From Sandarakinorhabdus glacialis (lineage in GTDB: Bacteria > Pseudomonadota > Alphaproteobacteria > Sphingomonadales > Sphingomonadaceae): 64,000 nt of DNA. Under the pieces are notes generated by a model, which was not told where the DNA came from, ran no database searches, and saw only the letters and a list, made by a program, of their open reading frames with translations. A program made the translations under genes and the position numbers. Numbering within the stretch: the stretch's first letter is position 1; each line of letters begins with the position of its first letter. Location of the stretch: positions 1 to 64,000 of the forward strand of contig NZ_BMJM01000006.1 of assembly GCF_014643455.1 (NCBI RefSeq), read 5' to 3'. This document shows, one piece after another, positions 34,500-45,611 of this stretch.

Positions 34500-35255
34500 T
34501 CAGCGTTTGCGAAGGTGGGCGTACATCGAGACAGTCATGTATTTGCGGAATGGTGGCAGGTCGGCGATCGGGCCGAAAATGCTGGCGACGGTCTGTTTCC
34601 AGCCGCCGGTGACGATGTTGCGGCGGAGCGAGACGATGTCGGCGGGGAGCGTCTTGAACATCGCTTCGAAATCGTCGGGCGTTGCCTTGTTGAAGCCGGC
34701 GTCGAAAGCGTCGGCATAGCGTTTGCCCGAGGTGGCTTCCATGGCATCGAGGACGGCCTTGTCGCCGAAGATCAGATGATGCCAGGGCAGGCGGGTGATC
34801 GGATAGCCGTGGTGGCCGAACGGCGAATACCAGAGCGGGCTGAAGCCGAAATACATGTCGGCGCCGGGCTTGGCGCGGTCGGCGACGGCGCGGGTGACTT
34901 CGCCCAAGGGCATGACATGCTCGAGGGTGTTCTGCGAGACGATGACATCGAAGCTGCCGACGTCGAGGGTGCGGATGTCGGCGGCGTACATCTTGACGCG
35001 GTCGCCATAGGGGGCGAGGCGCTCGGCGCCATAGGCGACGGCATATTCGGAGATATCGACGCCGACGACCTCGGCGGCGCCATTGTCGATCAGCCGCTGG
35101 ACCATGCCGCCCGTGCCGCAGCCGAAATCGAGGACGCGCTTGCCCTTGAGGGGTGGCACACCGCCGAAACGGCGCCAGTATTCGAAGGTCGAATCGAGGT
35201 GGTTTTCAAAGACGATCGACCGGTCTTTGGTGCGGACGGTCTTGGTGGCGGCCAT
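34500..35255 (-). CDS. Class I SAM-dependent methyltransferase
   Basis: A 251-residue methyltransferase. Motif I is VLDFGCGTGGMVQRLID; motif II is VVGVDISEYAV; post-motifs include YAADIRTLD and DVIVSQNTLEHVMPLGE. Substrate unknown; the fold fits small-molecule or sugar/lipid methylation. It stands alone on its strand with spacers on both sides. Confidence 0.88.
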   Translation of the reverse strand: MAATKTVRTKDRSIVFENHLDSTFEYWRRFGGVPPLKGKRVLDFGCGTGGMVQRLIDNGAAEVVGVDISEYAVAYGAERLAPYGDRVKMYAADIRTLDVGSFDVIVSQNTLEHVMPLGEVTRAVADRAKPGADMYFGFSPLWYSPFGHHGYPITRLPWHHLIFGDKAVLDAMEATSGKRYADAFDAGFNKATPDDFEAMFKTLPADIVSLRRNIVTGGWKQTVASIFGPIADLPPFRKYMTVSMYAHLRKR

Positions 35256-44786: not shown

Positions 44787-45017
44787 TGGAGCGGGTGAAG
44801 GGAATCGAACCCGCTAGCGCAGCGTCACAAGGGGCGGGGGTTCGCGGCACTGTCCGGCGGCGTTGGAGCGGGTGAAGGGAATCGAACCCGCTAGCGCAGC
44901 GTTACAAGGGACGGGGGTTCACGGCACTGTCCGGCGGCGTTGGAGCGGGTGAAGGGAATCGAACCCGCTAGCGCAGCGTTACAAGGGGCGGGGGTTCGCG
45001 GCACTGTCCGGCGGCGT
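44787..45017 (-). repeat. Three 77-bp tandem repeats, each ending in the tRNA-Gly 3' end
   Basis: Exact period: units start at 44787, 44864 and 44941, and the tRNA itself begins 77 bp later at 45018. Read in the tRNA direction, each unit is a 51-bp spacer followed by the last 26 nt of tRNA-Gly (GGGTTCGATTCC then CTTCACCCGCTCCA), including CCA. Units differ from one another by only one to three bases. Each can form an AGCGGGT/ACCCGCT stem that imitates the acceptor stem. The layout recalls the E. coli tyrT (rtT) repeats downstream of tRNA-Tyr. Alternatively they are serial attachment-site scars. Confidence 0.85.
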
Positions 45018-45091
45018 TGGAGCGGGTGAAGGGAATCGAACCCTCGTCACTTGCTTGGGAAGCAAAAGCTCTACCATTGAGCTACACCCGC
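45018..45091 (-). tRNA. tRNA-Gly (CCC)
   Basis: 74 nt including the encoded CCA. The acceptor GCGGGTG/CACCCGC is perfect. The anticodon loop TTCCCAA in a TTTGC/GCAAG stem gives CCC; the T arm is GAGGGTTCGATTCCCTT. It is followed downstream by the three 3'-end repeats. Confidence 0.93.
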
Positions 45092-45203: not shown

Positions 45204-45587
45204 CTAGGACCGCCGTGCCAGCGCTGCTCGTGCCGCTTCCGCCAGAAACCCCGATCGGTTGGCTGCGACGCGGTCGATTGCCCCGATCAGGGCCTCGTCC
45301 ATCGTGATACTCAATCGGATACTTTTGCCCGGCCTTTCGGTTGCGACGAGGATGCGGCCGATTTCACTGCTCTCGATGTCCCGCTCGATGGCATCAAGGG
45401 GCGTGGGTTCAGGCACAGTGTCGCCATCCTCGGTCATTCCCGCCAGATGGAATGCAAGGGCGTCGCCGGCATTTGCCGCCGCCGCCTGCACTGTATCGCC
45501 GGCAGATGTGCAGCCGGGCAGATCGGGGAAATAAACACTGAATCCATCCGACGCTCGTTCGATGATTGCGGCAAAATGCACTTCCAT
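45204..45587 (-). CDS. hicB: HicB-family antitoxin
   Basis: A 127-residue antitoxin with an N-terminal degraded RNase H-like HicB fold (FSVYFPDLPGCTSAGDTVQA) and a C-terminal ribbon-helix-helix DNA-binding tail (RLSITMDEALIGAIDRVAAN). The ATG at 45587 (MEVHFAAII) is preceded by AGGAG and preferred to an ATG at 45611. It lies 24 bp downstream of hicA; HicB neutralises HicA and represses the operon. Confidence 0.92.
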   Translation of the reverse strand: MEVHFAAIIERASDGFSVYFPDLPGCTSAGDTVQAAAANAGDALAFHLAGMTEDGDTVPEPTPLDAIERDIESSEIGRILVATERPGKSIRLSITMDEALIGAIDRVAANRSGFLAEAARAALARRS

Positions 45588-45611
45588 TTCTCGTCTCCTG
45601 TCCGGCACCAT

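Follow-up and report, generated by a model that had tools for sequence, protein, structure and literature searches.

What does a tRNA gene gain, or suffer, when its own 3′ end is repeated behind it? The question is raised by a tRNA-Gly(CCC) gene on the minus strand of the window (the whole stretch of 64,000 nucleotides analysed here), which is followed by three tandem units in the arrangement given below. The segment that we call anti-T is antisense to part of the T-arm of the tRNA; positions within units 2 and 3 are read from the 77-nt register.

45018..45091, minus strand: tRNA-Gly(CCC), intact, CCA encoded (ARAGORN; Rfam RF00005, 71.6 bits)
45037..45048, minus strand: region A (GACGAGGGTTCG), the T-stem 5′ strand and T-loop start of the tRNA, target of anti-T
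45018..45043, minus strand: B1, the 26-nt tail of the tRNA itself, the stretch that is repeated 3′
44941..45017, minus strand: repeat unit 1, 77 nt, closest to the tRNA
44987..44998, minus strand: anti-T of unit 1 (CGAACCCCCGCC), with 10 of its 12 bases complementary to region A and at most 7 of them in a row
44966..44978, minus strand: hairpin of unit 1 (CGCTGCGCTAGCG), adjoining the tail copy; modest, with 19 of 300 shuffles scoring equally
44941..44966, minus strand: tail copy of unit 1, T-arm to CCA, 26 nt
44864..44940, minus strand: repeat unit 2, 77 nt
44910..44921, minus strand: anti-T of unit 2
44889..44901, minus strand: hairpin of unit 2
44864..44889, minus strand: tail copy of unit 2
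44787..44863, minus strand: repeat unit 3, 77 nt
44833..44844, minus strand: anti-T of unit 3
44812..44824, minus strand: hairpin of unit 3
44787..44812, minus strand: tail copy of unit 3

A tRNA gene followed by its own 3′ end

The preliminary description of this DNA had reported a tRNA-Gly followed by three 77-bp repeats, each closed by the tRNA 3′ end with CCA, and had noted that every unit restores the T-loop, the 3′ acceptor strand and CCA. Both observations are borne out: the units lie at spacings of 77 and 77, and each consists of a 51-nt spacer plus the last 26 nt of tRNA-Gly(CCC), CCA included. Three exact 26-nt tRNA ends in register exclude chance. Compared with the reference copy, the 103-nt copies show 97% and 99% identity, and whole-genome searches leave the array in the same place, on a 244-kb contig. 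The genome has 43 tRNA genes (RF00005), and the other 42 show no perfect repeat of their final 14 nt when the 400 nt on the 3′ side are inspected (for two of them just 91 and 111 nt were available). The anti-T of unit 2 differs from that of unit 1 at two bases which, compared by eye with the tRNA, form one U.G and one U-A pair.

A scan for promoters and terminators found no promoter-like site and a single terminator-like match, which is within the tRNA itself. On the strand of the tRNA, and upstream of it, is a gene for a HicB-like antitoxin (PF15919; window 45204-45611, minus strand), and the frame that precedes it on this strand appears HicA-like by eye. Elsewhere in the window (35228-35239, minus strand), a 12-nt exact copy of the tRNA-Leu(TAA) 3′ end lies about 214 nt downstream of that tRNA; it is probably a chance match because it falls within a likely coding-frame start.

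Arrays behind tRNAs for ten amino acids

We searched 24 genomes of the genus with the array as query and 397 genomes of the family with a strict Gly-specific pattern, which yielded one further genome, G012, where the same tRNA is followed by a single unit of period 77 whose spacer is largely different from those of the window. Scanning a genome collection for two Gly tails 45-58 nt apart returned QBLU01000062.1 (isolate ULC179bin3, taken as G012) and Asticcacaulis sp. YBE204, which has one 80-nt unit and then a decayed further unit. Common to all three spacers (window, G012 and Asticcacaulis) is CGAACCC, the complement of the T-arm GGGTTCG. The same comparison bears on a mini-acceptor stem that had been proposed between AGCGGGT and ACCCGCT: its AGC is absent from G012 and Asticcacaulis, so the stem is not conserved, and a unit alone folds no better than its shuffles (z −0.89; 36 of 200 as good).

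A pattern for any tRNA, with no requirement for a complement, matched 25 of 376 genomes of the class, with arrays in G000 and G714 only. It added one true array, behind tRNA-Lys(TTT) of G714, where two 75-nt units carry the segment TTGAACCCAT, the complement of ATGGGTTCAA in the same tRNA; the other matches were judged from their sequence to be tandem tRNAs (ARAGORN was run on one, L206). Of the 33 genomes searched in the order of G714, 7 match a pattern free of GAACC and 8 match the version that includes it. The GAACC version matches 9 of 337 genomes in the window’s family, from which we dropped G073, whose match (L451) is a decayed tandem copy of tRNA-Ala(GGC) that mimics an array in pattern searches; it was removed before the counts that follow. 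Arrays occur in 5 of the 8 genus genomes of the family sample, on tRNAs for Gly, Ser, Pro and Cys. The only true case in a phylum sample of 396 genomes is the genome of the window, the two other matches being tandem tRNAs by their sequence. On these sampled searches the arrays are rare and concentrated in the window’s genus and the order of G714.

The assembled set comprises 27 arrays from 19 genomes or records, behind tRNAs for ten amino acids (Gly, Lys, Tyr, Val, Gln, Ala, Ser, Arg, Pro and Cys), and includes G269, where the contig ends within the tRNA. All come from searches within the class of the window, except one viral contig and Asticcacaulis, which we take to be a member of that class; 15 of the 27 were also found by patterns that make no demand for anti-T. 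Unit periods are 73-92 in 26 of the arrays and 136 in one. Compared with Rfam 15, seven array loci showed no family in the repeats. The copy number behind tRNA-Cys of G004 (L460) is obscured by a run of N in the stored sequence.

Among viral stretches, 1 of 105 is an array. It lies on an IMG/VR contig (L339, 261-1495), where an array behind tRNA-Ser(TGA) stands directly before a tyrosine integrase, followed by portal and capsid genes, so phages do sit at such sites. Five further stretches (L252, L293, L300, L325 and L335) passed the tail filter (last 14 nt, at most 3 mismatches) and were judged by eye to be tandem tRNAs or otherwise unlike; the rest failed it.

Anatomy of the units

Across the set the units follow one order: a linker, the anti-T, usually a hairpin, and the copy of the tRNA from T-arm to CCA, an order that we call T-mirror. 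The anti-T is the complement of nucleotides ~47-57 of its own tRNA, that is, the T-stem 5′ strand and the start of the T-loop. In 26 of 27 arrays its start lies 10-23 nt beyond CCA; the exception is tRNA-Val of G714, with 46 nt. From anti-T to tail the distance is 27-34 nt in 19 of the 27 (range 19-53). The hairpin scores well in 20 of 27 arrays (no more than 15 of 300 shuffles as high), and in 20 of 27, not the same 20, its end lies no more than 2 nt from the tail; in several arrays it is no better than shuffles (98 of 300 in G012, 229 of 300 for Pro in G004). The first tail copy equals the tRNA end in 19 arrays and differs from it in 8, and the duplicated stretch, read from the sequences, often runs several nt past CCA. 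The window array fits this order weakly, with an anti-T run of 7 nt that 77 of 2,000 shuffles equal and a hairpin equalled by 19 of 300.

The antisense segment is fitted to its own tRNA

Over the 27 arrays the longest complementary runs sum to 254, compared with a mean of 121 and a maximum of 138 in 2,000 shuffles of the spacers. Permuting the tRNA labels between arrays gives 168 ± 6.8 with a maximum of 197, and none of 20,000 permutations reaches 254. A run of at least 7 nt is present in all 15 arrays found with no requirement for anti-T.

Some searches required the GAACC core, so the fair test lies at the positions beyond it. At nucleotides 51, 50 and 49, the anti-T is complementary to the tRNA in 25, 24 and 24 of 25 arrays (73 of 75 cells; G714 Val and Gly-TCC were left out, and the wrong AACC was picked in G279, which makes its match count too low), whereas it is complementary to the upstream bases of its own unit in 14, 5 and 11 of 25 (30 of 75 cells). 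The T-stem pair 49-65 is G.U in eleven arrays, and in 11 of 11 the anti-T there is C, the complement of the 5′ strand, where a copy of the 3′ strand would give T. The only miss at nucleotide 49 is tRNA-Cys of G004, which has no such wobble.

Pairs between anti-T and tRNA also change together. Counted over 25 distinct rows, 7 of 12 pairs have changed on both sides, with 44 cells so changed as against 15.7 in shuffles, and covariation is 0.382 compared with 0.122 when shuffled (0 of 500 as high) and at most 0.089 when slid; percent paired leans towards structure because rows were chosen by their best complementary window. Further pair types are no more numerous than in shuffles (83 of 500). Weak members of the set are the window (run 7), G815 (7), Cys of G004 (8), and Gly-TCC (8) and Val (6) of G714. 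The Val array was found by tail scan and is thus an unbiased case below a run of 7; 225 of 2,000 shuffles match its run of 6, and a second run opposes CCTCTCGG to CCGAGAGG of the same tRNA. At the level of base complementarity, the anti-T is fitted to each tRNA. This fit and the recurrence behind other tRNAs are additions to what had earlier been observed at the locus.

The fit persists where the surrounding sequence does not. Eleven pairs can be formed from arrays that share a tRNA but belong to different species, and some of the pairs are not independent; in them, anti-T identity is 103/110 (94%) compared with 139/226 (62%) for the linker and 241/334 for the part after anti-T; as aligned, the anti-T is kept while the linker drifts. 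Hairpins persist with altered sequence in several of these pairs; those behind tRNA-Gly(GCC), for example, are built from GTGCCGC/GCGGCAC in one array and ATGCGGC/GCCGCAT in the other.

Anti-T also travels with the tail copies. Of 75 tRNAs examined in G714 and G796, 9 have tail copies (6 by the tail-scan rule and 3 with changed tails from pattern searches, Lys-TTT of G796 being found solely by a pattern requiring GAACC), and all 9 have an anti-T, with runs of 6 and 8 for Val. Among the 66 without a tail copy, a run of at least 8 over the T-stem 5′ strand or T-loop occurs in 3, all in G796: Glu, Ser-GCT and a Met (GATTTGAA).

Two of these loci have features of their own. About 55-75 nt after the CCA of tRNA-Glu (L441), a perfect 16-nt palindrome, CGAACCCGCGGGTTCG, stands behind a strong terminator-like hairpin and is antisense to the T-arm, with no tail copy. 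Behind tRNA-Ser(GCT) (L443) lies GAACC with CCGATAAG; the locus has a terminator-like hairpin, then GAACCGATAAG (the T-stem complement minus three bases) and later a tail-like AATCCTCTCC, and it is possibly a decayed array.

A possible second cloverleaf-like fold of the precursor

How might such a unit act? RNase P and RNase Z recognise the stack of acceptor and T-arm. If, as we infer, the array is transcribed together with the tRNA and acts in cis, anti-T would invade the native T-stem and the downstream tail copy would pair with the 5′ acceptor strand of the tRNA, and the precursor could then adopt another cloverleaf-like fold, from which the true tail and the linker loop out. This alternative fold would have no normal acceptor/T-arm stack, so that the array would restrain or time the maturation of its one tRNA; copy number could shift by slippage between near-identical units. 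We think it quite possible, if somewhat short of an even chance, that the T-stem and 3′ half of the precursor are exchanged in this way with the help of the unit, which thereby restrains maturation.

Comparative evidence supports pairing of anti-T with its tRNA; the swap of the 3′ half in cis is a proposed step, to which RNAfold speaks in part. The native T-stem stands at 0.66 when the tRNA is folded by itself, at 0.44 once anti-T is included and at 0.09 once the first unit is complete, in calculations that leave out tRNA tertiary contacts and modified bases, both of which favour the native tRNA. Pairing of region A with anti-T exceeds 0.5 in 9 of 26 arrays with anti-T and in 16 of 26 with the complete first unit, and is 0.5 or less in 10 of 26. 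Real spacers pair with region A at 0.51 compared with 0.05 for shuffled ones (higher in 19 of 25 arrays), whereas the preference of the acceptor for the downstream tail, 0.76 real and 0.73 shuffled, is not specific to real spacers. These foldings cover 25 and 26 of the 27 arrays, G269 having no tRNA 5′ end and Val being in the second set only. For the window, pairing of region A with anti-T is 0.81 with the spacer and 0.00 after the tail copy is added. Minimum-energy folds (for example, both Tyr arrays and Lys-CTT of G796) place the acceptor 5′ strand with the downstream tail, pair region A with anti-T and form the hairpin; the Tyr and Lys-CTT folds also contain a small T-arm-like hairpin.

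Control of bacterial tRNA genes is usually ascribed to the promoter or to decay. Our tentative general reading, which we hold with somewhat less confidence than the swap itself, is that the arrays are cis-acting RNA elements in tRNA trailers, mainly of Alphaproteobacteria, fitted to the host tRNA, whose second cloverleaf may throttle a single tRNA species with tandem copy number setting the strength, the E. coli tyrT repeats being a distant, larger relative. If true, antisense carried in the trailer, specific to its tRNA and present behind tRNAs for ten amino acids, would amount to a per-tRNA control that annotation has missed. Against a regulator, gain and loss within a genus are fast for something that governs an essential gene.

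Alternative origins

One rival is a tiny mobile or site-specific element that enters tRNA 3′ ends, copies or uses its target and multiplies in tandem, with the tail copy as duplicated core and anti-T as a guide or recombination half-site. The arrays are sporadic and sit on different tRNAs in sister species (the five genus genomes above); several may share a genome, copy numbers change, last units are decayed, and duplication beyond CCA is also as such an element would leave it. A prophage integrase frame ends about 50 nt from the viral array at L339, and an integrase lies about 1 kb from the array in G804. At 73-92 bp in 26 of 27 arrays, however, the units are too short for a recombinase gene, and integrase matches (PF00589) occur on just 3 of 16 array contigs searched in 10 genomes, some of these contigs being just 4-6 kb long: at about 1 kb on C22 of G804, about 5 kb on C13 of G796 and about 77 kb on C7 of G796. 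The window’s contig has no PF00589 match. Stacked attachment sites had been offered among the possible origins of the window repeats, yet tails of tRNA-Gly that resemble attachment sites are longer: among the first 120 viral stretches listed for the window’s 26-mer, 64 of 69 tail-only copies extend identity to the anticodon arm (of the 5 that do not, 2 run into the end of their contig), whereas the window repeat is 26-28 nt. As a general explanation, stacks of attachment sites are thus not generally supported by the sequences, and an element would moreover have to account for an anti-T that stays matched while linkers drift. We regard a mobile origin as rather unlikely. Were it correct, the element would be very small, with a sequence fitted to whichever tRNA hosts it.

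Fork template switches can leave a direct repeat together with an inverted piece, and that is the expected trace if switching at the tRNA hairpin produced an inverted T-stem piece and a duplicated tail, later amplified by slippage and functionless. Decayed copies are common, as such a by-product would predict. The same order and similar spacing nevertheless recur on unrelated tRNAs, the 94% identity of anti-T stands against 62% for the linker in arrays on the same tRNA, and hairpins outlast their own sequence in several of those pairs; a mutational by-product seems to us unlikely, more so than a mobile element. Least probable of all is a small RNA or decoy acting in trans, in which RNAs of about 75-90 nt, cut at each CCA, would pair with tRNA precursors or occupy the tRNA enzymes TruB, RNase P and RNase Z. 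Intact units do end in a T-arm copy bearing CCA, and anti-T would pair with the parent tRNA, but the unit has no acceptor 5′ strand, its T-stem 5′ strand is mostly replaced (the 30 of 75 matches within the unit) and the T-arm of a mature tRNA is buried.

Relation to the E. coli tyrT repeats and other known systems

Duplicated tRNA 3′ ends are familiar from attachment sites and element remnants, where they form direct repeats, and phage genes adjoin some arrays too; the arrays differ in their short core, in having no element between copies and in carrying a fitted anti-T in every case (with runs of 6-7 nt in some). Tandem tRNA genes and pseudogenes have a similar period and can mimic the search pattern. 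Array units differ from them in that no tRNA-like 5′ part was seen in the units compared by eye, and on this ground we rejected the unit as a decayed tRNA; a true decayed tandem copy (the tRNA-Ala of G073) looks unlike them. We did not find tRNA-end trailer repeats with an antisense segment in the open-licence literature, by which measure the class is little known. A 1991 paper on RNA of the tyrT operon is named in the references of PMC11623569.

The parallel with the E. coli tyrT repeats drawn in the preliminary description holds and reaches further than was proposed. Like the arrays, the repeats of tyrT and tyrV (rttR, RtT, RF00391) are tandem units behind a tRNA that end in its tail with CCA: in E. 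coli K-12 (NC_000913, L370) a 175-nt unit lies between tyrT and tyrV, and three 178-nt units that repeat the tRNA-Tyr tail follow tyrV. They differ in these larger units, in their single locus and in their overlap with the small ORF tpr. The RF00391 covariance model gave no match up to E 0.5 in the seven array loci tested, whereas its control gave four matches (133-138 bits) in the E. coli locus. By their shared tail copies and their other spacing and sequence, the arrays are a variant related to RtT, not RtT members.

A specialist may be surprised that an antisense segment fitted to its tRNA recurs behind tRNAs for ten amino acids, and that E. coli tyrT shows a trace of one; whether the arrays prove to be regulators or mobile elements, the tyrT repeats gain a comparative context with testable parts. 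The trace lies in the unit between tyrT and tyrV, where the 10 nt of GAACCTTCGA are complementary to the T-stem 5′ strand of tRNA-Tyr (0 of 2,000 shuffles). This segment, after which comes a sense copy, AAGGTTCGA, stands 68 nt after the CCA of tyrT, as opposed to the 10-23 nt after CCA typical of the arrays. With such a 10-nt segment in one of its four units, RtT and the arrays look like relatives in kind. Behind tyrV, the three units hold a broken T-stem complement, GAAGCTTCGA, whose longest run of 6 does not exceed shuffles, together with GGGGAAGGAT, 10 nt complementary to the tail, which 0-2 of 2,000 shuffles equal.
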